Part shown: in pieces, positions 1-10,000 of the stretch
How positions within the stretch are numbered: position 1 is the first letter of the stretch
How the letters are laid out: each line of letters begins with the position of its first letter
NCBI RefSeq assembly: GCF_020217025.1
Contig: NZ_JAIWOF010000041.1
Location: 1-10,000, forward strand
Source: Flavobacterium sp.
GTDB lineage: Bacteria > Bacteroidota > Bacteroidia > Flavobacteriales > Flavobacteriaceae
DNA: 10,000 bases
Direction of reading: 5' to 3'
The notes under the pieces: model-generated
Told to the model about the DNA's origin: nothing
The model's database searches: none
The model's input: the letters and a program-made list of their open reading frames with translations, nothing else
Made by a program: the position numbers and the translations under genes

Positions 1-288
1 ATTTTAGCCGCTTTTGATGAGCCAACCCAATCGTTTATTTGTAAAGTAATTTTCGATAAACCTTTGAATACTTCGCTTTATGGAACGCAATTAGAAGCTA
101 ATATTCTAGTTGGCGAAAAGAAAAATGCGCTTTTAATTCCAAGAAACTTTTTAGGTTTTGGAAACAAAGTAATGGTAAAAGGAAAAGACGAAGCCATTAT
201 CGTAAAAACAGGGATAGTTTCTACAGATTATGTAGAAATTTTAGACGGAATCACTAAAGAAGATGTTTTGTTGCCTTTAAAACCTTAA
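1..288 (+). CDS. Membrane-fusion (MacA/HlyD-like) periplasmic adaptor, C-terminal fragment
   Basis: The frame is open from the first base and ends in TAA at 286-288, so this is the last 95 residues of a gene that starts left of the window. Visible elements fit the C-terminal beta-barrel and membrane-proximal part of an adaptor of the HlyD/MacA/RND family: a 'G-T-Q-L-E-A-N-I' strand, then 'ALLIPRNFL', which resembles the 'vlvP..al' strand found after the barrel, then a short domain ending in 'VEILDGITKEDVLL', which resembles the usual '.veI.sGL..Gd.Vv' ending. In this family the adaptor links an inner-membrane transporter to an outer-membrane channel. A MacB-type permease and an ATPase follow with 3-nt gaps, which supports a MacA-like role. 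A TTG inside the frame at 64 is not a credible start because homology-like sequence continues upstream of it. The family is fairly sure; the substrate is unknown. Confidence 0.75.
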   Translation: MLAAFDEPTQSFICKVIFDKPLNTSLYGTQLEANILVGEKKNALLIPRNFLGFGNKVMVKGKDEAIIVKTGIVSTDYVEILDGITKEDVLLPLKP

Positions 289-291
289 GCC

Positions 292-1515
292 ATGAACATC
301 AATACCGAAATAGCAAAAACGTATATTATTTCCAATAAAAAACTAACAGCTGTTGCATCGGCTGGTGTGGTTTTAGGAATGTCTATTTATATTTTTATGA
401 ATAGTATGTTAGTTGGATTTGATAAGAGTTCGAGTGCTAGTATTTTTAAAACAACATCTCATATTCGAGTGTATAAAGATGACGAAATTAGCAAGGTTTT
501 AGTTAAAAATTCTAAAGAAAATTACTTGATTATTAATCCGAAAATTGTTCCGTCAAACAATACAATTATTAATCCGAAGTTAATTTCCGAAACCATTTTA
601 AAACAGCCCGAAGTTACTGTAGTTACGCCTCAAGTAAGTGTTAATGTTTTTTATAACAATGGTAAATCACAAATTTCAGGATTAGCAATTGGCATCAAAC
701 CTGAAGAAGCAAATGTGATGTACAACATCAAATCGTTTATGGCCGAAGGTAATTTTGACTTATTAAAATCAAATCCAAACGGAATTATTATTGGAAGCGG
801 AATTGCCGAAAAAATGAATGCAAAAATTGGCGATAATATCAATTTAACTTCCTCAAAAAGCGTTAACAAAACGTATAAAGTTGTTGGAATTTTTAAAACC
901 AATAATTCAAAAATTGATAAATCAAATTCCTACGTAAATTTAGCCAGTTCTCAACAATTATTGAAAGAAGGAGCATACTATATTACAGACATTAACGTAA
1001 ATATTGTTGATCCAGAAAAAGCAAAAGCAATAGCTGAAAAAATTTCAAATATAACGGGTTATAAAGCTGAAGGTTGGAAAGAAGCTAACGAAACTTTTAT
1101 GGCTGCCAATAAAATGCGAAAAATGATTATCACTTTTGTTTCTCTAACTATTTTGTTAGTTGCAGGTTTCGGAATTTATAATATTTTAAACATGACGGTT
1201 TCACAAAAAATTAATGATATCGCTATTTTAAAAGCTATGGGTTTTAAAGGAAAAGATGTCATTAGAATATTCGTGACACAAGCGGTAACAATAGGAATCA
1301 TGGGTGTTATCGGCGGAATGATTATGGCAACCGTTTTAATAACTTTCTTGAAAAAAGTATATGTTGGTGGTGATATTGGTTATTTTCCCATTGATTATGA
1401 ACCGACAAAATATTTGCAAGGCGTTGTTATTGGTTTAGTAATTACTTTTTTCGCAGGTTATATTCCGGCTAAAAAAGCCGCACAAGTTGATCCTGTTACC
1501 ATTTTTAGAAAATAA
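292..1515 (+). CDS. ABC transporter permease, FtsX/MacB family
   Basis: This 407-residue inner-membrane protein has the classic MacB/LolC-E layout. One N-terminal membrane helix lies at about 19-42. A large periplasmic domain follows (about 45-275) and includes the MacB core-domain pattern 'NGIIIGSGIAEKMNAKIGD' (163-181). Three C-terminal helices lie at about 278-300, 327-352 and 375-391. The segment 'INDIAILKAMGFKGKDV' (308-324) matches the cytoplasmic coupling region of FtsX permeases, and the C-terminus 'AAQVDPVTIFRK' is the usual 'A..vdPv.alR' ending. Family members do not pump through a membrane pore; they use ATP hydrolysis to drive conformational change across the periplasm (MacB, LolCDE, FtsX). 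Unlike E. coli MacB, the ATPase is not fused and is encoded by the next gene. It starts 3 nt after the adaptor stop and ends 3 nt before the ATPase start, so the three are probably co-transcribed. The exported or extracted substrate cannot be told from sequence. Confidence 0.88.
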   Translation: MNINTEIAKTYIISNKKLTAVASAGVVLGMSIYIFMNSMLVGFDKSSSASIFKTTSHIRVYKDDEISKVLVKNSKENYLIINPKIVPSNNTIINPKLISETILKQPEVTVVTPQVSVNVFYNNGKSQISGLAIGIKPEEANVMYNIKSFMAEGNFDLLKSNPNGIIIGSGIAEKMNAKIGDNINLTSSKSVNKTYKVVGIFKTNNSKIDKSNSYVNLASSQQLLKEGAYYITDINVNIVDPEKAKAIAEKISNITGYKAEGWKEANETFMAANKMRKMIITFVSLTILLVAGFGIYNILNMTVSQKINDIAILKAMGFKGKDVIRIFVTQAVTIGIMGVIGGMIMATVLITFLKKVYVGGDIGYFPIDYEPTKYLQGVVIGLVITFFAGYIPAKKAAQVDPVTIFRK

Positions 1516-1518
1516 ATT

Positions 1519-2193
1519 ATGCGACAAACTATTCTAAAAACCGAAAATATAGATAAATATTTCTATGACCCGATTGAATTTCAAGTGTTGAAAAATATTT
1601 CATTTGAAGTTCAAAAGGGAGAATTTCTTTCAATGGTTGGAAAATCGGGCAGTGGAAAATCTACGTTATTGTATGTTTTATCAACAATGGATACAGAATA
1701 CAATGGAAATTTATTCATTGATAACGAATTAATGACGGGTTTATCAACTGATAAATTAGCGGCAATTCGAAATGAAAAAATTGGGTTTGTTTTTCAATTT
1801 CATTACTTACTTTCAGAGTTTACATGCTTAAAAAACGTTATGATTCCTGCAATTAAACTTGGTAAATATTCCGAAAAAGAAATTGAAGAAAAGGCATACG
1901 AAAAACTCAAAATTCTTGGCTTAGAAGATCAAGCTTTAAAACCTGCCAACAAACTTTCGGGCGGTCAACAACAGCGTGTAGCAATTGCTCGTGCATTGAT
2001 AAACGACCCCTTATTAATCATGGGTGACGAACCTACTGGAAATTTAGACAGTAAAAACACCAACATTGTTTTTGATATTTTTCAAGAATTAACACAAAAC
2101 TATGGACAAACCATCATTGCCGTAACACATGATGATGATTTTGCAAAAAAAAGCGACCGAATTATAGAAATGAAAGATGGTTTAATTGTTTAA
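1519..2193 (+). CDS. ABC transporter ATP-binding protein, LolD/MacB type
   Basis: This 224-residue cytoplasmic ATPase is of normal length for the LolD/FtsE/MacB-NBD group. All nucleotide-binding motifs are intact: Walker A GKSGSGKST (41-49), Q-loop Gln93, signature LSGGQ (146-150), Walker B LLIMGDE with catalytic Glu171, D-loop NLDS (175-178) and switch His204. The string 'GDEPTGNLDS' is typical of this subgroup. It would dimerise and power the FtsX-type permease encoded just upstream, whose stop lies 3 nt before this start; the adaptor completes a MacAB-like assembly. The last 12 nt, including the stop, overlap the antisense 3' end of the convergent helicase gene, and I see no intrinsic terminator between them. 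LolD itself is unlikely to be the right name because an adaptor gene is part of the operon. Confidence 0.9.
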   Translation: MRQTILKTENIDKYFYDPIEFQVLKNISFEVQKGEFLSMVGKSGSGKSTLLYVLSTMDTEYNGNLFIDNELMTGLSTDKLAAIRNEKIGFVFQFHYLLSEFTCLKNVMIPAIKLGKYSEKEIEEKAYEKLKILGLEDQALKPANKLSGGQQQRVAIARALINDPLLIMGDEPTGNLDSKNTNIVFDIFQELTQNYGQTIIAVTHDDDFAKKSDRIIEMKDGLIV

Positions 2194-4458
2194 ACTCGCT
2201 TTATACAATCGCAATTCATCCCAGGAGAATTGATCGCCGTGAATTTCTTTTAATTCGCCTAAGCTTTCGCCTTTAAAATCTTTGAAAGCTGCTCTTAAAT
2301 CGGAAATTTTATCTTCTGGTAAAATGTCTGAAAGTTGCACGATTTCCATTTGAATTAACTTGGCAAAATGGTTGTAAATCGTTTGTGGTGTTAGCTTTCG
2401 GTGTTTTGCAATCTCGTAAATCGATAAGTTTTGTTTCCACAATTCTAAGGTGTCTTCGTAAGTAGATTTCTTTGGTTCTTTTGTTTTTTTCTTTTTCGAA
2501 TCGGTGTAATACGAAACGTCTTCTTCGTCTTCCACTAAAGCCGCGTTCGAAGTTCTAAAGCGTTCTGCCACAACTACTAACTTATTGATTTTGTAGGTAC
2601 TCATGTCTTCCGAAATTAAATTTTGCTTTGAAATTTCTTTTCCTTCGACAATGATATTGGTGAGTAATTTTGCCTTTTTAAGTTGTAAAATCGCTTTGAT
2701 TTGAAGTTCTTCTAAAACCAATAATTCATCGTAAAACGCTTTTACTTTTTTGATGCGTTTGACTTCTTCGATTTTCAATAGTAATTCTTCGGCAACGATA
2801 TCTAACGTTTTGAAAAAATACTGGTATGCTGCATCACATCGCTCCTTTACGAAATTGACATCCAAATTTTCATCGGAAAAAATTTTATGTAATTGCGACA
2901 TAAATTTCCCTGATGGTTCGAGAATTTCGGCGATTTTTTCGTGTTGGGTTTTTGCCCAGTCGTTATGTTTTGTCTTTGGTGATTTTGGTGCTTCGGAATT
3001 GTAACTGAACAAATGATTGCGCCATTCTTGACCTAATTCTTTGAAATCAAATGAATTAAGTAAGGTGTTTAACCAGAAAAACAAGGTCTCTTTAGCTAAC
3101 GAATGTTGTAAAATTTCTTCAGAAGCTTTATTTTCAGCATAACTGAGCACTTGTTCGTCGCTTGAAATGCCATTCATTCGCAACGGAGAAAGCAAAATAA
3201 GCCCTTTTAACGAACGCAAACGCGACAAAGCCACATACGCTTGTCCAGGTGCAAAAACTTGCGATACATCGAGCGCTGCTTTGTCGAAAGTTAAACCTTG
3301 ACTTTTATGCACCGTAATTGCCCAAGCCAATTTGATAGGGTAGTGGACAAACGTTCCGATGACTTCTTCCTCAATTTCTTTAGTGTTTTCGTTGACTTTG
3401 TAGCGAATATTTTGCCATTCGTAGCGTTCTACTTCAATCGTTTTATTTTCTTCGGGAAAATGAACAAAAATTTCCTTTTCAGTTAACGAACTGATAACAC
3501 CCATTTTTCCGTTGAAGAATTGCTTTTCGAAATTCAAATCGTTTTTAATAAACATGACTTGTGCGCCCACTTTTAGCTGCAATTGTTCTTCTAATGGATA
3601 TATTTTTTCAGGAAAATCTCCTGTAATTTCTGGTAAATAAGTGAATTGTTTTCCTTCTAAATCTTTTAAAGATTGCGCATTTATGGTATCTGCTTTGGAA
3701 TTATGTGTGGTTAAAATGATGAAACCTTTGTTTTTTTTCAGATCAAAATCAGGTTGTACAAATTGATTTAGCAGTTGTACATCTTCCGAAGTGATTTTGT
3801 TGTGTCTCAAATTGTTCAAAACATCAATAAATTCGGCATCCGTTTGACGAAAAATTTTATCTAATTCAATGTATAAAGGCGGAAATTGCTGAATTACGTG
3901 CGAATGAAAAAAGAACATGCCTCGGTAATAATTCTTGAGCATTTCCCATTCTTCATTTTTTACCACTGGTGGTAATTGTAATAAATCTCCTATAAAAAGA
4001 ACTTGAACACCACCGAAAGGTCTTTCATTTCTTCTTACTTTTCTCATCATAAAATCCATCGCATCCAATACATCGGCACGAAGCATAGAAACTTCATCGA
4101 TAACTAACAATTCCATATTTCGAATTACGGAACGTTTCACGTTATTCATCTTGAAATGACGTCCAAGAGAATCTCTGTTTTCGAATTTTACGGTATCTGA
4201 AAAGTGTGGAAGTTGCTTATTATCAGGAATAAAAGCAGCAAAGGGCAATTGAAACATAGAATGGATAGTAACTCCATTAGCGTTCAAAGCGGCAATTCCT
4301 GTGGGTGCTACAACTACTGTGTTTTTGTGTGTTGTGGCGATAATTTCTTTTAAAAGTGTGGTTTTTCCGGTTCCTGCTTTTCCGGTAAGAAAGATGGATT
4401 TATTGGTTTGATTAATAAATCTGAGAGTGTAGATGGCTGCGGCTGATACTTGTTCCAT
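2182..4458 (-). CDS. Pif1/RecD-like superfamily 1B DNA helicase with C-terminal HTH domain
   Basis: Starting at the ATG at 4458, the product has 758 residues. The N-terminal half is a complete SF1B helicase core: Walker A GKAGTGKTT (26-34), 'APTGIAA' (51-57, motif Ia), motif II VIDEVSM (119-125), motif III GDLLQLPPV (157-165), 'ITVHKSQGLTFD' (381-392, motif V) and 'YVALSRLRS' (408-416, motif VI). The VHKSQG and ALSR strings place it with Pif1/RecD-type 5'-to-3' helicases. After an acidic and lysine-rich linker (about 643-664), residues about 665-755 look like an HTH_40-type winged helix, 'SIYEIAKHRKLTPQTIYNHFAKL', a domain also found at the C-terminus of some RecQ helicases. The frame can be extended to a TTG at 4482, but that codon falls inside the putative promoter, so the ATG is preferred. 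The gene stands alone, after a terminator on the same strand. A role in genome maintenance, such as structured DNA or recombination intermediates, is inferred from the family only. Confidence 0.85.
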   Translation of the reverse strand: MEQVSAAAIYTLRFINQTNKSIFLTGKAGTGKTTLLKEIIATTHKNTVVVAPTGIAALNANGVTIHSMFQLPFAAFIPDNKQLPHFSDTVKFENRDSLGRHFKMNNVKRSVIRNMELLVIDEVSMLRADVLDAMDFMMRKVRRNERPFGGVQVLFIGDLLQLPPVVKNEEWEMLKNYYRGMFFFHSHVIQQFPPLYIELDKIFRQTDAEFIDVLNNLRHNKITSEDVQLLNQFVQPDFDLKKNKGFIILTTHNSKADTINAQSLKDLEGKQFTYLPEITGDFPEKIYPLEEQLQLKVGAQVMFIKNDLNFEKQFFNGKMGVISSLTEKEIFVHFPEENKTIEVERYEWQNIRYKVNENTKEIEEEVIGTFVHYPIKLAWAITVHKSQGLTFDKAALDVSQVFAPGQAYVALSRLRSLKGLILLSPLRMNGISSDEQVLSYAENKASEEILQHSLAKETLFFWLNTLLNSFDFKELGQEWRNHLFSYNSEAPKSPKTKHNDWAKTQHEKIAEILEPSGKFMSQLHKIFSDENLDVNFVKERCDAAYQYFFKTLDIVAEELLLKIEEVKRIKKVKAFYDELLVLEELQIKAILQLKKAKLLTNIIVEGKEISKQNLISEDMSTYKINKLVVVAERFRTSNAALVEDEEDVSYYTDSKKKKTKEPKKSTYEDTLELWKQNLSIYEIAKHRKLTPQTIYNHFAKLIQMEIVQLSDILPEDKISDLRAAFKDFKGESLGELKEIHGDQFSWDELRLYKASLNN

Positions 4459-4479
4459 GTGGCGTAAAATTTTAAAAAA

Positions 4480-4487
4480 CAAATATA
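4480..4487 (-). promoter_or_regulatory. Putative Bacteroidota -7 element for the helicase gene
   Basis: The - strand reads TATATTTG, an exact match to the Bacteroidota/flavobacterial -7 consensus TAnnTTTG. It lies about 22 nt upstream of the preferred helicase ATG at 4458, so a transcript would have a short leader. It also lies directly downstream of the terminator of the preceding gene, where a new promoter is expected. No clear TTTG -33 partner is visible at the right distance, so the call is tentative; such an 8-mer occurs by chance in AT-rich DNA. Confidence 0.4.
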
Positions 4488-4504
4488 TAGAAACGAATAG
4501 AAAT

Positions 4505-4531
4505 AAAAAAGTCCCGATGACTCGGGACTTT
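4505..4531 (-). terminator. Intrinsic terminator of the OmpH-like lipoprotein gene
   Basis: A perfect 7-bp GC-rich stem (GTCCCGA / TCGGGAC, 4511-4528) closes a 4-nt loop. On the - strand it is followed by six T (4510-4505), the standard Rho-independent form. It begins a few bases after the stop of the lipoprotein gene at 4535 and lies before the helicase promoter candidate, so it separates the two transcription units. This is the clearest terminator in the window. Confidence 0.88.
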
Positions 4532-4534
4532 CAA

Positions 4535-5110
4535 TTATTTTTTCTCTTCTTCTTTAGTGGCTACTTTATCGTCTTTCTTAGTCGCTTTATATGTATCATT
4601 AAGTTCTTTTAAAACTTCTTTAGTGATATCATAACCCTCTTTAGCGTAAAGAACTGTTGCAGCATCACCAGTTCCGTAGATGTAATCATATCCTTTTTTC
4701 TTTCCGTAATCTTTAATGAATTTTTTTACTTCACTAATTAAAGTATCTTTTAAAACAGCTCCTTCTTGTTGCAATTGTTGTACTAAAGCATTTTGCTCTA
4801 TACCTAATTCTTGCTCTCTTTGTTGTAATGAAGCTCCCATTTGTTGTGCCCATTGAGGCCCTTTTGCTTGCGCATTTTGACGGAAATTTTGTGCATCAGC
4901 TTGAAAAGCCCTAACTTTTGCCTCTAACGGACGACCTAATTCTTCCGATTTTACTTTGAATTTATCGTCTTCATCTTTGAATTTTTCGTATTTCTCGATT
5001 AACTCAGCAGTATCTATATATGCAGTTTTAAAATCTTTTGAACTTGTTTCTGTTTTGTTACATGCTAAAACGCTTAATGCAACACCTAAAATCAAAACTA
5101 ATTTTTTCAT
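4535..5110 (-). CDS. OmpH/Skp-family periplasmic chaperone-like lipoprotein
   Basis: The 191-residue product starts at the ATG at 5110. Residues 1-17 form a lipoprotein signal: Met-Lys-Lys, a hydrophobic stretch, then the lipobox L-A-C with Cys17 as the lipidation site. The mature part follows the OmpH/Skp plan. A first strand 'TAYIDTAELIEKYEKFK' (29-45) resembles the usual '.aYVd...ll..y'. A long Gln- and Lys-rich helical hairpin (about 46-130) follows, then 'FIKDYGKKKGYDYIYGTGDAATVLYAKEGYDIT' (131-163), which matches the C-terminal core 'vk.ya.ekGYd.Vl' of the family. The last 15 residues are a highly charged Lys/Glu tail. Skp holds unfolded outer-membrane proteins in a trimer in the periplasm; here the lipobox suggests a membrane-tethered relative. 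An in-frame upstream codon at 5170 would bury the signal peptide and overlap the promoter, so it is rejected. The gene has its own promoter candidate and a strong terminator, so it is probably monocistronic. Confidence 0.82.
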   Translation of the reverse strand: MKKLVLILGVALSVLACNKTETSSKDFKTAYIDTAELIEKYEKFKDEDDKFKVKSEELGRPLEAKVRAFQADAQNFRQNAQAKGPQWAQQMGASLQQREQELGIEQNALVQQLQQEGAVLKDTLISEVKKFIKDYGKKKGYDYIYGTGDAATVLYAKEGYDITKEVLKELNDTYKATKKDDKVATKEEEKK

Positions 5111-5140
5111 GATTGTATATTGGTAATTAATAATTTTTCG

Positions 5141-5171
5141 TAAAAGTAATAATAAGTTGTAAAGTAACAAA
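5141..5171 (-). promoter_or_regulatory. Putative Bacteroidota promoter of the OmpH-like gene
   Basis: On the - strand a TTTG at 5171-5168 is followed, after exactly 19 nt, by TACTTTTA at 5148-5141, which matches the -7 consensus TAnnTTTG in all but the last base. Spacing and order agree with flavobacterial housekeeping promoters. The start codon at 5110 would sit some 25 nt downstream of the expected start of transcription. The -33 element lies in the 12-bp palindrome AACAAATTTGTT (5166-5177), which could be coincidence. Confidence 0.5.
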
Positions 5172-5351
5172 TTTGTTGCTTTTTTATTTATTTTTCAATT
5201 ATAAGAATTTCTTATGTGATTTTTTAAAAATGATAGATTCAAGCTATTAAAAGTGACTTTCATAATTTAAATTAGACAAATCATCTAAAAAAAGATAATA
5301 AATTACATCAAATTAAACAAAAAAGTGTCTAAAATCGCTTAAAAATGATTT

Positions 5352-6200
5352 TTACTTGTTTTTTAGCACATAAATATGCGAAGAAAATTCCTTTTTAAAG
5401 AATCCTGACATATTTGAGATCAAACCGATAAAAAATCCAGAAATGAAATTCATTTTTCCAGTTTTATATTTTTCGGATAAAAGCGACACATAAAAACTAT
5501 CAAACCACATGGGTTTAATATCTTCCAAATTCATATTTTGTTTATCGAATAATTTTTCAATGGCTGTTTTTGAGAAATGCCACAAATGTCTAGGCACATC
5601 ATAAGCTGCCCAAAATTCTTTGTAATGATTTGCATCATACGATTTGAAATTTGGAACCGCGATAATAATTGTTCCTGAAGGCTTCAACAAACGTTTCAAT
5701 TCTGCAACTTGATGTTCGACATCTGGAACGTGTTCTAATACATGCCACATGGTAATTACATCAAAAGAATTGCTTTCTAACTTTTCAATCGTATCACCGA
5801 ATTTAATTCCTTTACCTAAAGCAATTCCTTTTGCTTTATCGTTTGGTTCAATTCCAAGAATATCCCAATTTTGATTTTTACATTCCAAAAGAAAATCCCC
5901 AGTTCCTGCTCCGATGTCTAAAATTCTTCCTTTAACAGGTTGGTACGAATTAATTAATTTCACTTTATCACGAATTGCTTTTCTTTTGATGAAATGATAC
6001 ATTTTTTCAAACAACGTACGTTTTCCATCGGTGTGCGAAATGTAATCTTCGAATTCATAATACGAACCTAATTTATCCAAAGTAGGTTGCGGATGTGTTT
6101 TTAAAATTTGATATTCCTCATTTAACAACAAGGAAAAAGATTCTCCAGAAACTGAAAAATCTTTAACGGTAATAAAACTTTTATCTTCTAAAAAATTCAT
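5352..6200 (-). CDS. Class I SAM-dependent methyltransferase (Methyltransf_23-like)
   Basis: This 282-residue protein has a Rossmann methyltransferase core. Motif I 'ILDIGAGTGDFL' lies at 93-104, an acidic ribose-binding residue in 'GIEPN' at Glu118, and 'FDVITMWHVLEHVPD' (146-160) matches the motif II/post-II region of the family. 'DVPRHLWHFS' (201-210) is a hallmark of this Methyltransf_23-type group. The N-terminal 90 residues, with 'HPQPTLDKLGSYYEFEDYISHTD' at 36-58, look like the substrate-side cap of this flavobacterial group. A hydrophobic stretch at about 250-268 near the C-terminus may be amphipathic or membrane-touching. The acceptor is unknown; small molecule, lipid/quinone or glycan are all open. 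It follows mnmG on the same strand after 122 nt that carry a parS-type site and a CAGT repeat, so co-transcription is uncertain. No convincing terminator follows it. Confidence 0.8.
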   Translation of the reverse strand: MNFLEDKSFITVKDFSVSGESFSLLLNEEYQILKTHPQPTLDKLGSYYEFEDYISHTDGKRTLFEKMYHFIKRKAIRDKVKLINSYQPVKGRILDIGAGTGDFLLECKNQNWDILGIEPNDKAKGIALGKGIKFGDTIEKLESNSFDVITMWHVLEHVPDVEHQVAELKRLLKPSGTIIIAVPNFKSYDANHYKEFWAAYDVPRHLWHFSKTAIEKLFDKQNMNLEDIKPMWFDSFYVSLLSEKYKTGKMNFISGFFIGLISNMSGFFKKEFSSHIYVLKNK

Positions 6201-6248
6201 TTATTTTATTTTTATGCGAAAGGCTTATTTTAATGGGGTTAACAGCGT

Positions 6249-6264
6249 TGTTTCACGTGAAACA
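6249..6264. promoter_or_regulatory. parS: parS-type centromere site 1 (perfect palindrome)
   Basis: TGTTTCACGTGAAACA is a perfect 16-bp palindrome that matches the widely conserved chromosomal parS consensus TGTTNCACGTGAAACA. ParB (Spo0J) loads at such sites and spreads to organise and segregate the origin region. The site is intergenic, between mnmG and the methyltransferase gene. Two further copies lie on the other side of mnmG, which makes chance very unlikely. Confidence 0.88.
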
Positions 6265-6268
6265 TATT

Positions 6269-6298
6269 CAGTTGGCAGTCGCAGTGTTCAGTCTCAGT
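6269..6298. repeat. Phased CAGT repeat, 13-bp period
   Basis: Five CAGT tetramers start at 6269, 6276, 6282, 6289 and 6295, that is with steps of 7, 6, 7 and 6 bases. This gives a degenerate 13-bp tandem unit: two full copies agree at 9 of 13 positions, and a third copy begins. Read on the - strand it is a run of ACTG units just downstream of mnmG. The base composition is much less AT-rich than the surrounding spacer. It begins 5 bp from parS site 1. I know of no assigned function. Confidence 0.65.
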
Positions 6299-6322
6299 TA
6301 AATAAAAAAATAAAAACCGTGA

Positions 6323-8194
6323 CTATCTACCCATATATATCAACAACACTGAAATATCACTTGGCGAAACTCCACTAATACGAGAAGCTTGCGCGATAGT
6401 TCTTGGTCGGATTTTATTTAATTTTTGTTTGGCTTCAATTGAAATGGATTGGATTTTATCGAAATTAAAATTATCTGGAATAATCATATCTTCTAAACGA
6501 GTTAGTTTATCTGCATTATTTTTTTCCTTTTCAATATAACCAGAATATTTCACTTGAATTTCGGCTTGCTCAACCACTTCTTGATCTAAATCATGTTCTT
6601 CGATATAAGCTGCCACTTTTTTGAATTTTCTAAAATCTTCCAAATCCAATTGTGGACGAGAGAACACTTTAAACATTTTATCAGGTTGACTCATCGGAGC
6701 AGAACCTTTAGCTTCTAAAATTGGATTTGCTTCTTCTGGTTTTAAACTTGTTTCTCTGAAGAAATTTACCATTGCATCGGATTGTGAGAATTTTTGTTCC
6801 ATACGAATCAAACGCTCCTCTTTAGCTAAACCAATTTCGAATGCTTTTGGTGTTAATCTAAAATCAGCATTATCTTGACGAAGTAATGTTCTGTATTCAG
6901 CACGAGAAGTAAACATACGGTATGGTTCTTCTGTTCCTTTTGTAATTAAGTCGTCAATTAAGACTCCTATATAGGCTTCGTCACGTTTTAAAATAAATGG
7001 CTCTCGATTCTGAACTTTTAATGCTGCATTTATTCCAGCCATTAATCCTTGAGAAGCGGCTTCTTCATAACCAGTCGTTCCATTAATTTGTCCAGCGAAA
7101 TACAAACCTTCCACCAACTTAGTTTCTAAAGTGTGTTGCAATTGCGTAGGAGGGAAGTAATCATATTCAATAGCATAACCTGGTCTAAAAAATTTCACAT
7201 TTTCAAATCCGGCAACCGAACGTAATGCTTTGAATTGAATATCTTCTGGTAACGAAGTTGAAAATCCGTTGATGTAATATTCACAAGTTGTCCAACCTTC
7301 TGGCTCAACAAATAATTGATGACGTTCTTTATCTGCAAAACGATTAATCTTATCTTCGATAGAAGGGCAATATCTTGGACCTAAACTTTTGATTCTTCCG
7401 TTGAACATTGGACTTCTGTCAAAACCTTCGCGTAAAATATCGTGGACTTCTAATGAAGTATACGACATCCAACAAGAACGTTGTGTTTTTAAAGGCGCAG
7501 TCAAATTAGAATACGAAAACTTTTCTGGATGTTCGTCACCAGGTTGTTCTACCATTTTAGAAAAATCTAAAGAACGACCATCCACACGTGGAGGTGTTCC
7601 GGTTTTCATTCTTCCTGATTCAAAACCTAATTTCACTAAATCTTCTGTGATTCCAAAAGAAGCACTTTCACCTGCACGACCACCACCAAATTGTTTGTCT
7701 CCAATATGAATCAATCCATTCAAAAAAGTTCCGTTTGTCAACACAACTGACTTAGCCTTGATTTCCACTCCAAGCGAAGTTTTTACTCCAACAATCTTTC
7801 CACTCTCTGATAAAATTCCAGCCACCATTTCTTGGTAGAAATCCAAGTTCGGAGTGTTCTCCAACATCGATCTCCACTCATCCGAAAAACGCATTCTGTC
7901 CGACTGCACTCTTGGTGACCACATAGCAGGTCCTTTTGATTTATTCAACATCTTGAATTGGATTGCGGTCTTGTCCGAAACAATTCCAGAGTATCCACCC
8001 AAAGCATCAATCTCACGCACGATTTGTCCTTTTGCAATTCCTCCCATAGCAGGATTACACGACATCTGTGCAATGTTTTGAAGATTCATTGTCACCAAAA
8101 GCGTAGAGCACCCCATGTTGGCAGCAGCAGCAGCAGCTTCACAACCGGCGTGGCCCGCACCCACAACAATTACATCATATTGATTTAAAAACAT
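6323..8194 (-). CDS. mnmG: tRNA uridine-5-carboxymethylaminomethyl modification enzyme MnmG (GidA)
   Basis: This 623-residue protein has the full length expected for MnmG. With MnmE it installs the aminomethyl or carboxymethylaminomethyl group at C5 of the wobble uridine of certain tRNAs, using FAD, NADH and a folate one-carbon donor, in the cytoplasm. The N-terminus has the FAD dinucleotide motif VGAGHAGCEAA (11-21). Cys46 in 'MSCNPAMGGIAKG' and Cys276 in 'GPRYCPSIEDK' (272-282, GidA signature 1) match the two conserved cysteines of the family. Signature 2 is 'AGQINGTTGYEEAASQG' (367-383). The C-terminal helical domain ends with 'RISGVSPSDISVLLIYMGR', the typical MnmE/tRNA-side tail. The stop is TAG. 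mnmG lies close to the replication origin in many bacteria, and here it is flanked on both sides by parS-type sites. It follows ybeY after 56 nt. Confidence 0.98.
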   Translation of the reverse strand: MFLNQYDVIVVGAGHAGCEAAAAAANMGCSTLLVTMNLQNIAQMSCNPAMGGIAKGQIVREIDALGGYSGIVSDKTAIQFKMLNKSKGPAMWSPRVQSDRMRFSDEWRSMLENTPNLDFYQEMVAGILSESGKIVGVKTSLGVEIKAKSVVLTNGTFLNGLIHIGDKQFGGGRAGESASFGITEDLVKLGFESGRMKTGTPPRVDGRSLDFSKMVEQPGDEHPEKFSYSNLTAPLKTQRSCWMSYTSLEVHDILREGFDRSPMFNGRIKSLGPRYCPSIEDKINRFADKERHQLFVEPEGWTTCEYYINGFSTSLPEDIQFKALRSVAGFENVKFFRPGYAIEYDYFPPTQLQHTLETKLVEGLYFAGQINGTTGYEEAASQGLMAGINAALKVQNREPFILKRDEAYIGVLIDDLITKGTEEPYRMFTSRAEYRTLLRQDNADFRLTPKAFEIGLAKEERLIRMEQKFSQSDAMVNFFRETSLKPEEANPILEAKGSAPMSQPDKMFKVFSRPQLDLEDFRKFKKVAAYIEEHDLDQEVVEQAEIQVKYSGYIEKEKNNADKLTRLEDMIIPDNFNFDKIQSISIEAKQKLNKIRPRTIAQASRISGVSPSDISVLLIYMGR

Positions 8195-8209
8195 CTTCTA
8201 TAAATATTA

Positions 8210-8225
8210 TGTTCCACGTGAAACA
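8210..8225. promoter_or_regulatory. parS: parS-type centromere site 2
   Basis: TGTTCCACGTGAAACA fits the consensus TGTTNCACGTGAAACA at every defined position; only the free base breaks the palindrome. It lies in the 56-nt gap between ybeY and mnmG, 16 nt upstream of the mnmG start, so bound ParB would sit where the mnmG leader or a local promoter would be. It is identical in sequence and orientation to site 3, 45 bp away. Confidence 0.88.
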
Positions 8226-8250
8226 TTTAAAAAAATTCTGGTTTATAAGC

Positions 8251-8670
8251 TTAATGTTCCACGTGAAACATTTGCATTTTTTCTTCTTCTTTAGAACGCA
8301 TTAAAGCTTCGTCTTTAGGTGATTTATCTTTGTATCCACAGTAGTGTAAAACACCATGCGATAGAACACGCTTTAACTCTTCCTCAAAAGAAACATTAAA
8401 ATCTTTAGCATTATCTTGAACGCGTTCTATAGAAACGAAAATATCGCCCTGTATTAAATTTCCTACTGTGTAATCAAAGCTAATAATATCGGTTAAAGTG
8501 TCATGATCTAAGTACTCTACATTAATTTTATGTAGGTATTCGTCATCACAAAAAATATAATTGATTTCACCTTCATCAAATCCTTCGGATTCGATAATGC
8601 GAGAAATCCAATCTTCGTATTGCGCTTCGTTTTCGAGTTCGAAATCTGTTTCGTAATTAAAACTAATCAT
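8251..8670 (-). CDS. ybeY: Endoribonuclease / rRNA maturation factor YbeY
   Basis: This 139-residue protein is of normal YbeY (UPF0054) length. YbeY is a metal-dependent endoribonuclease that takes part in 16S rRNA 3'-end maturation and ribosome quality control. The core shows 'TLTDIISFDY' (58-67), equivalent to the family's 'TDVLSF', then 'GDIFVSIERV' (75-84) and the metal site 'SHGVLHYCGYKDK' (104-116). His105 and His109 are present, but the third ligand, usually His in 'GYDH', is Asp115, the form I associate with Bacteroidota. The Arg that usually precedes the 'TDVLSF' block appears as Leu54. The start overlaps the stop of the preceding gene by 8 nt, which implies translational coupling. 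The last six residues, MFHVEH, are encoded by parS site 3, so the tail is probably shaped by DNA-site constraint rather than by enzyme function. Confidence 0.93.
   Translation of the reverse strand: MISFNYETDFELENEAQYEDWISRIIESEGFDEGEINYIFCDDEYLHKINVEYLDHDTLTDIISFDYTVGNLIQGDIFVSIERVQDNAKDFNVSFEEELKRVLSHGVLHYCGYKDKSPKDEALMRSKEEEKMQMFHVEH
8255..8270. promoter_or_regulatory. parS: parS-type centromere site 3, inside the ybeY coding end
   Basis: TGTTCCACGTGAAACA again fits the parS consensus at all defined positions. It lies within the reading frame of ybeY, covering the codons of its last six residues and ending 1 nt before the stop codon. With site 2 it makes a close pair 45 bp apart in the same orientation. 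Confidence 0.87.
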
Positions 8671-10000
8671 TGCCTTTAAAATAGTTTTGAACCTTATGGT
8701 TAAAATTGGGTTGCAAAGGTAAGCTTTGTCTGTTTAATATTTCAACACTATTCAGATAATCTTTTAATACCTTAGAAAGTGGAGTAGTGGAACCGTTATA
8801 ATTTTTGTCATTTGTTTTAGACTGACGCTTGGTGTCTTCTCCTTGTTGCTGAATGGCTTTTTCTAATTTTAAAAGTTCGTGTTTTAGATTCAACATTTTT
8901 TGCAACGTTTCATTTTTAAAACCTTTATTGATAAGTTGCTTTTCTATTTCTTTCATTTGATTCAAAGCACTCTGACCTTGACCCGACATTCCTTCTTTTT
9001 CTAATGCTTTTTGAAGAGCATCACGAAGTTGTCTTTGCTCTTTTAGAATCTCTAAAACTTTACCGGCATTTCCTTCTGAACCGTTTTCGCCATCTTCACC
9101 ATTCTCACCAGATTGCCCTTTTTGTTTTCCTTGTCCAGATTTATCACCTGGTTTGTCTCCAGGTTTTTCACCAGGTTTCATTCCGTCTTTCATTTTTTCA
9201 CCCAAACCTTCTTGCTGTTTGATGATATCAGGAAGCTGCATTCCTTTTCCTCCGCCTGGTTTTGGTTTGCCTTTTCCAGATCCTTGGCCTTGCATATCCA
9301 TGTTCATTTCGCTTTGCACATTACTCAAATAATCAGCTAAACGGTTCGCTGATGTTAAAACATATTGTTGATGTGAAGCGCCTTTTGCAATATTATTGTC
9401 CGCTAAAGTTTCTAAAGTCTTATCTAAATTATAATGAATTTCTCCTACTTCATTAAGAATCGTTTCAGTAATTTTTGGGTTGCGTAAGGCAACAGCAAAT
9501 AAACTATCATCCACATGTTTGAATTGTAACTTCAAATCTTGTTGCTTTTTTAAGACTTTATTCAATTGCAAAGAACGTACTTGAGAAGAATTTGTAGTCT
9601 TAATTAAACTCTCCTCGTCGAATGAAAAAGCTAATAAATTATCAAGTATTTGACGTAACAATTTAGCATCTTCTTGCATTTGTTCCATGTCACCTGATTG
9701 CATAGATTGAGTCATTTTGTGACTCATCTGTTTCATCTTTGCAGCAGCAGATTTTTGCTTCGGTTTTGCTTTCTGTTGATTTTGTTTTTGTAATTCCTCA
9801 GAAGCTTTCTCCATATCTTTTTTGACATCCTCTTGTTCATTCTTATCATTAGGAATATCCATTGGAGCTTTTAATTCTTTATTTTCTTTGTCTAAATCTT
9901 CAAGTTCTTTCTTAATATCGTCAAACTCTTTATTGATGGCATCTTGATTTTCCTTGTTATTTTCTTTAGTGTCATCAGCTAATTTTTCTTCCTTCTCAGC
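8663..10000 (-). CDS. DUF4175-like Gln/Lys-rich coiled-coil protein, C-terminal part
   Basis: The frame is open to the right edge (10000), so this is the last 445 residues of a longer protein whose start is outside the window. The visible part opens with a strongly charged predicted coiled coil ('KEFDDIKKELEDLDKENKELK', about 24-44). A Lys/Gln-rich stretch with spaced Met ('MKQMSHKMTQSMQ', about 89-101) follows, then a helical domain (about 112-230) with 'LKLQFKHVDDSLFAVALRNPKI'. Next come a Gly/Lys/Pro/Glu low-complexity linker (about 237-313), a further coiled coil (about 314-390), and an end 'SLPLQPNFNHKVQNYF' that looks conserved. This pattern fits the large DUF4175 proteins of Bacteroidota, which have N-terminal membrane helices; those helices would be off the window here. 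The function is unknown to me. The stop overlaps the ybeY start by 8 nt, so the two are probably one operon. Family assignment is from recollection of the pattern, not a search. Confidence 0.65.
   Translation of the reverse strand, partial: AEKEEKLADDTKENNKENQDAINKEFDDIKKELEDLDKENKELKAPMDIPNDKNEQEDVKKDMEKASEELQKQNQQKAKPKQKSAAAKMKQMSHKMTQSMQSGDMEQMQEDAKLLRQILDNLLAFSFDEESLIKTTNSSQVRSLQLNKVLKKQQDLKLQFKHVDDSLFAVALRNPKITETILNEVGEIHYNLDKTLETLADNNIAKGASHQQYVLTSANRLADYLSNVQSEMNMDMQGQGSGKGKPKPGGGKGMQLPDIIKQQEGLGEKMKDGMKPGEKPGDKPGDKSGQGKQKGQSGENGEDGENGSEGNAGKVLEILKEQRQLRDALQKALEKEGMSGQGQSALNQMKEIEKQLINKGFKNETLQKMLNLKHELLKLEKAIQQQGEDTKRQSKTNDKNYNGSTTPLSKVLKDYLNSVEILNRQSLPLQPNFNHKVQNYFKGND
9140..9178 (-). 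repeat. Short in-frame tandem repeat encoding KPG(E/D) units
   Basis: Three consecutive 12-nt units, plus the first codon of a fourth, encode K-P-G-E, K-P-G-D, K-P-G-D and K within the low-complexity linker of the DUF4175-like protein. The unit length is a multiple of three, so copy-number change would keep the frame. The linker around it (about 9062-9292) is Gly-, Lys- and Glu-rich and likely disordered. Confidence 0.7.

Follow-up and report, generated by a model that had tools for sequence, protein, structure and literature searches.

Results

Three consensus parS sites bracket mnmG

The window, by which we mean the whole stretch of 10,000 nucleotides that was analysed, comprises bases 1-10000 of one contig (C36) in a draft Flavobacterium assembly of 2,527,226 b and 238 contigs. 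It carries mnmG, whose product is the tRNA uridine-5-carboxymethylaminomethyl(34) synthesis enzyme, flanked by ybeY and a methyltransferase-like gene (Table 1). The remaining genes gave MacB/FtsX permease, ABC ATPase, PIF1-like helicase and OmpH-like family matches, and an ORF at 8663-9862 had no Pfam family match.

Table 1. Genes and parS sites at the mnmG locus, in window coordinates
Feature	Coordinates	Strand	Evidence and position
methyltransferase-like gene	5352..6200	-	PF13489, 99.1 bits; beyond parS site 1
parS site 1	6249..6264	.	TGTTTCACGTGAAACA, perfect palindrome; exact match on both strands; in the gap between the mnmG 3' side and the methyltransferase-like gene
mnmG (gidA)	6323..8194	-	TIGR00136, 844.5 bits (cut-off 524.85); bracketed by parS sites
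parS site 2	8210..8225	.	TGTTCCACGTGAAACA, exact match; between ybeY and mnmG
ybeY, rRNA maturation RNase	8251..8670	-	TIGR00043, 109.8 bits (cut-off 45); PF02130
parS site 3	8255..8270	.	TGTTCCACGTGAAACA, exact match; within the last ybeY codons

The window holds three exact matches to TGTTNCACGTGAAACA, the second and third with a start-to-start spacing of 45 b, and all three conform to the 16-b chromosomal parS consensus TGTTNCACGTGNAACA. When up to three mismatches to TGTTNCACGTGAAACA were allowed the window yielded six matches, each site being counted on both strands, while 200 dinucleotide shuffles of the window gave a mean of 0.49 and a maximum of 5, with none reaching six. The same three sites, clustered within 2.02 kb, are the only exact ones in the whole assembly, and freeing the second N and allowing one mismatch still returned three; the reversed control pattern had no match. 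From the base composition of the window, and with the second N freed too, the number of exact sites expected by chance in 2.53 Mb is about 0.008. The consensus matches that the initial annotation had placed at 6249, 8210 and 8255 are therefore exact and not due to chance, and the genome-wide motif search that it proposed finds them not scattered. Its placement of one site on the 3' side of mnmG and two on the 5' side also stands, with the refinement that the site at 8255 is inside the end of ybeY rather than intergenic. The window mnmG shares 98% identity with its counterpart in Flavobacterium lacisediminis, and the locus of that species (L037) has three sites at matching distances from mnmG, at +43 (after mnmG), -31 and -76.

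ParB and ParA are encoded on another contig

A parB gene, on whose existence the initial annotation had made its reading depend, is present in the assembly: there is a single ParB_N match, its neighbouring gene encodes a ParA-type ATPase, and both lie on another contig than the sites. The protein has ParB_N, HTH_ParB and ParB_C domains. Compared by sequence with solved structures, it matches ParB/Spo0J proteins best and Noc proteins less well. Noc identity was considered and rejected, the Noc model TIGR04285 scoring 242.4 bits, below its cut-off of 315. In the HTH region the stretches GKKR...N and SMGHGRA align to the same parts of 7bnk, and by this alignment the assembly encodes a cognate ParB with a parS-type HTH alongside a ParA. 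The available part of one study describes R173 and G201 as residues that contact parS and are conserved in ParBs (PMC7383237); with the numbering mapped by eye, we read these as probably the R of GKKR and the G of SMGHGRA, respectively.

No Smc protein scored above the TIGR02168 cut-off in any of eight genomes searched (G000, G202, G310, G345, G452, G472, G124 and G013), and 10 of 14 control genomes passed the same model. The best sub-threshold match, of 35.3 bits, is located on the parS array of G452. ParB is present in G000, G124 and G013, which are those of the eight that were checked for it.

A frame downstream of parB in one locus (L004, G000:C228) resembles DapB by eye. In the reduced endosymbiont Blattabacterium the skew origin has been put in dapB, according to the available part of the source (PMC2768785); in contrast, parB in the family genomes is far from parS and from the skew origin.

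The parS-mnmG arrangement is conserved

The conservation of the sites was followed in a family sample of 149 genomes, drawn evenly, at least 90% complete and including our own. Exact TGTTNCACGTGNAACA sites, one to three in each, occur in 134 of these genomes and are lacking in 15, with no reversed-control match in any. In a phylum sample, sites were found in 296 of 392 genomes and one reversed-control match each in six of the 392, as read from the results table.

The position of the sites relative to mnmG was examined at 80 named mnmG loci with flanks of up to 4 kb, several of them cut by contig ends. Allowing one mismatch, a site lies within 500 b of mnmG on the 5' side in 73 of 80 loci, on the 3' side in 69, on both sides in 66 and on either side in 76; 188 of the 190 sites found at this stringency are within 1.3 kb of mnmG, and the reversed control gave none. 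Conversely, three-kb loci were drawn by the site alone, at most 30 per draw. Among the matches listed, mnmG was present in 49 of 57: 29 of 30 in the family draw (L007-L036), 5 of 5 in an additional set from the family (L278-L282) and 15 of 22 from elsewhere in the class (L256-L277), where the seven without mnmG all belong to families f5 and f9. A full mnmG locus was obtained from 12 of the 15 family genomes that lack an exact site, a fragment from G032 and none from G004 and G107; a site with up to two mismatches is found at all 12 full loci, and on both sides at 11 of them.

On the 5' side the sites reach into coding sequence. The ybeY ORF of the window ends MFHVEH, and site 3 encodes this C-terminal tail (window 8251-8270). 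Among the 73 loci with a 5' site (up to one mismatch, within 600 b of mnmG) an upstream ORF was recognised in 70, and the site falls within this ORF in 39 and outside it in the other 31. A tail reading FHVE, FHVK or FHME is found close to the stop in 37 of the 39. Judging from its position and the similar tails, the upstream ORF of the relatives is probably ybeY, the HMM check having covered the window alone.

The closeness of sites to mnmG on both sides (500 b or less) at 66 of 80 loci could also be taken to mean that the palindromes are transcription signals of that gene, such as a terminator, an attenuator or a repressor site, and not a centromere. We consider this very unlikely. Across the 188 sites hardly any variation is seen at the inner positions, changes mostly affecting the two outer bases with a few in CACGTG. 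The core GTTNCACGTGNAAC is almost constant, and yet CA or TG is found at the symmetric pair 5/12 in 65 of 188. A fixed core with a varying symmetric pair indicates that a fixed DNA word is being kept and not a varying hairpin. Furthermore, one copy is within coding sequence at many loci, the word is that of published parS, and a parB gene exists. One genome, G020 (L030, L164), is an exception to the arrangement in that the 20 kb around its three parS sites contain no mnmG, yet these sites are 0.05-0.09 of the chromosome from the best-fit skew flip, which again speaks against a role tied to mnmG transcription.

The sites are origin-proximal in relatives

Skew is unusable in our own genome, a draft in 238 contigs, and the origin was therefore placed from relatives. 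Skew was sampled in 20 stretches of 20 kb in each of six single-contig relatives (G124, G013, G131, G135, G020 and G069). The best step fit put the negative-to-positive flip at 0.00-0.06 of the chromosome from parS in the first four of these and at 0.09-0.13 in G069, G020 falling between them with the value given above; the fits are noisy, with R2 of 0.38-0.76, and when fits poorer by up to 25% are admitted the distance extends to 0.21 in G124 and to 0.20 in G020. When the six genomes were anchored on parS the skew signal was 0.0415, greater than in all 5000 random anchorings (maximum 0.036), as against -0.013 when they were anchored on dnaA, a value that 85% of random anchorings equalled or bettered. 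In the two genomes for which the flip was narrowed, G013 and G135, it lies tens of kb to one side of the sites. In G013, where parS is at 932 kb, it falls at about 860-930 kb; in G135, where parS is at 2449 kb, skew stays close to zero over 2330-2390 kb and is clearly positive from 2405 kb onwards. Fine skew within the 20-kb parS stretches had no common flip point, and gene-strand share and third-position skew, followed in three genomes, were noisy.

Genes for rRNA run in the direction of replication. In 14 family genomes all 27 cases are directed away from parS/mnmG, and in five same-genus genomes all 25 are, a total of 52/52. In the family set ten genomes were anchored on parS and four without an exact parS on mnmG; G102 (no rRNA row) and G107 (no mnmG and no exact parS) were omitted, and a single rRNA gene of G020 that is split into two fragments entered the count as one. 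Some chromosome lengths were rounded to 0.1 Mb, and for G021, which has two contigs, all features used are on C2. In the five genomes of the genus the positions compatible with rRNA orientation make up 12-36% of each chromosome, and parS is inside this interval in every one. Taking parB as the origin fits 9 of 27 in the family genomes.

On these two lines of evidence, skew in six genomes and rRNA orientation in 52 of 52 cases, parS is near the origin in the relatives. The proximity of parS to parAB and dnaA, which is usual though not defining, is not found in them: in ten family genomes dnaA is 0.24-0.49 and parB 0.17-0.36 of the chromosome away from parS, and in the five genomes of the genus dnaA is 0.19-0.23 away. 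The proposal of the initial annotation that the locus is close to the origin and not to the terminus is thus borne out in relatives, by skew and by rRNA orientation. Of the comparisons that it suggested, the one with skew was informative in these relatives, whereas those with dnaA and parAB would mislead, because both are far from parS in Flavobacteriaceae.

DnaA boxes were also considered as a guide to oriC. No exact box (TTATCCACA) occurs in the window, which has five scattered boxes with one mismatch, and the heaviest sampled cluster fell in the parS stretch in one of the six genomes, G020 (weight 5, 5.6 kb from parS); DnaA-box clusters were rejected for this purpose.

Several single-contig genomes begin at dnaA, and such records imply that the origin is at dnaA, which would put our locus near the terminus. 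One published figure legend likewise labels mnmG as ter, contradicting the text of the same paper (Mariniflexile litorale; PMC11278836, available part). It is very improbable that this is the correct assignment. With dnaA as the origin, rRNA orientation fits in 4 of 27 family and 14 of 25 genus cases (18/52), as against all of them for parS/mnmG, and the sign of the skew agrees with the latter. Moreover, the available text of the Mariniflexile paper places the predicted oriC next to mnmG with skew support, finds dnaA not aligned with the skew plot and has both rrn operons on leading strands (PMC11278836). An origin at mnmG, also with skew support, has been predicted for Algorimicrobium (PMC12843772), Ori-Finder being used in both cases (PMC11278836, PMC12843772). 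An origin at mnmG in Flavobacteriaceae has therefore already been predicted in two genome papers; parS sites go unmentioned in the available parts of both.

Discussion

Here we find, around mnmG of a Flavobacterium, a well-supported case of a real, conserved and origin-proximal centromere of a known kind, in a layout that is unusual and itself conserved. We think it very likely that the three sites form the centromere of this chromosome and are located near its origin, with dnaA and parAB elsewhere on it. Plasmids too carry ParB-type partition sites, but the idea that the sites came with an integrated plasmid or other element is scarcely credible given that mnmG has flanking sites at 76 of 80 loci in many genera and that housekeeping genes are among the neighbours.

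With the chromosomal ParABS systems of Bacillus subtilis (Spo0J/parS) and Caulobacter (ParB/parS) the present one has in common the 16-b site, the ParB domains and the parS-type HTH residues, and likewise a ParA partner and sites clustered near the origin. It differs from them in that, in relatives, dnaA is 0.19-0.49 and parB 0.17-0.36 of the chromosome from the sites, and in that no Smc scored above cut-off in the genomes searched here (8/8). In ParABS systems generally, ParB loads at parS as a CTP-dependent clamp and spreads, and ParA separates the new origin regions. By analogy, and if our chromosome follows those of its relatives, ParB would be loaded as a CTP-dependent clamp at the sites on either side of mnmG, loaded ParB would spread over the neighbouring DNA of the origin region, and ParA would then separate the newly copied sister origin regions. 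Since no Smc was found above the curated cut-off in eight genomes, loading of Smc-ScpAB at parS is unlikely and this branch doubtful, and the ParA branch is the expected output. With parS, parAB and dnaA unlinked and canonical Smc not detected, these bacteria may offer a natural case for ParA-driven segregation without Smc loading.

A further-reaching proposal is one that we put forward tentatively and do not quite favour. It holds that across Flavobacteriales a parS-mnmG-parS module marks the origin and has been kept while dnaA and parAB moved far away, so that ParB and DnaA would act only in trans, and without Smc; that mnmG would always be inside the partition complex, owing to ParB clamps that slide from one parS flank to the other; and that selection on the centromere might have been so strong as to dictate the C-terminal tail of YbeY.

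A Hi-C study of gut Bacteroidetes reports that parS clusters, together with skew, mark the origin and that dnaA does not do so systematically, and two Bacteroidetes of that set had no known condensin homologue (PMC10197239, available part). The species there are gut species and not Flavobacteriaceae, and the available part describes no mnmG arrangement. Among the matches listed in our literature search we found no paper on parS around mnmG or on an ORF tail encoded by parS; the Livny 2007 survey, outside the coverage of that search, may describe it.

The presence of parS around mnmG provides a simple sequence landmark for the origin region of Flavobacteriaceae, a family in which records starting at dnaA are misleading. 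Such a landmark helps coverage-based estimates of replication rate and the orientation of assemblies.

Some loci depart from the common pattern. In a Capnocytophaga MAG (L099) mnmG is present and its 4-kb flanks have no site with up to two mismatches. In Polaribacter (L085, L092) and Tenacibaculum (L087, L090) the sites at mnmG are one or two bases off the consensus on each side, for example CGTTCCACGTGGAACT, deviations that may reflect a shifted or relaxed specificity of ParB. Three Flavobacterium spp. loci (L044, L040 and L041) have 6 to 12 parS-like sites (up to two mismatches) on the 5' side of mnmG, spaced at 39-118 b with one gap of 300 b, and in L044 they include an evenly spaced series of the variant TGTTCCACATGGAACA at intervals of 116-118 b.
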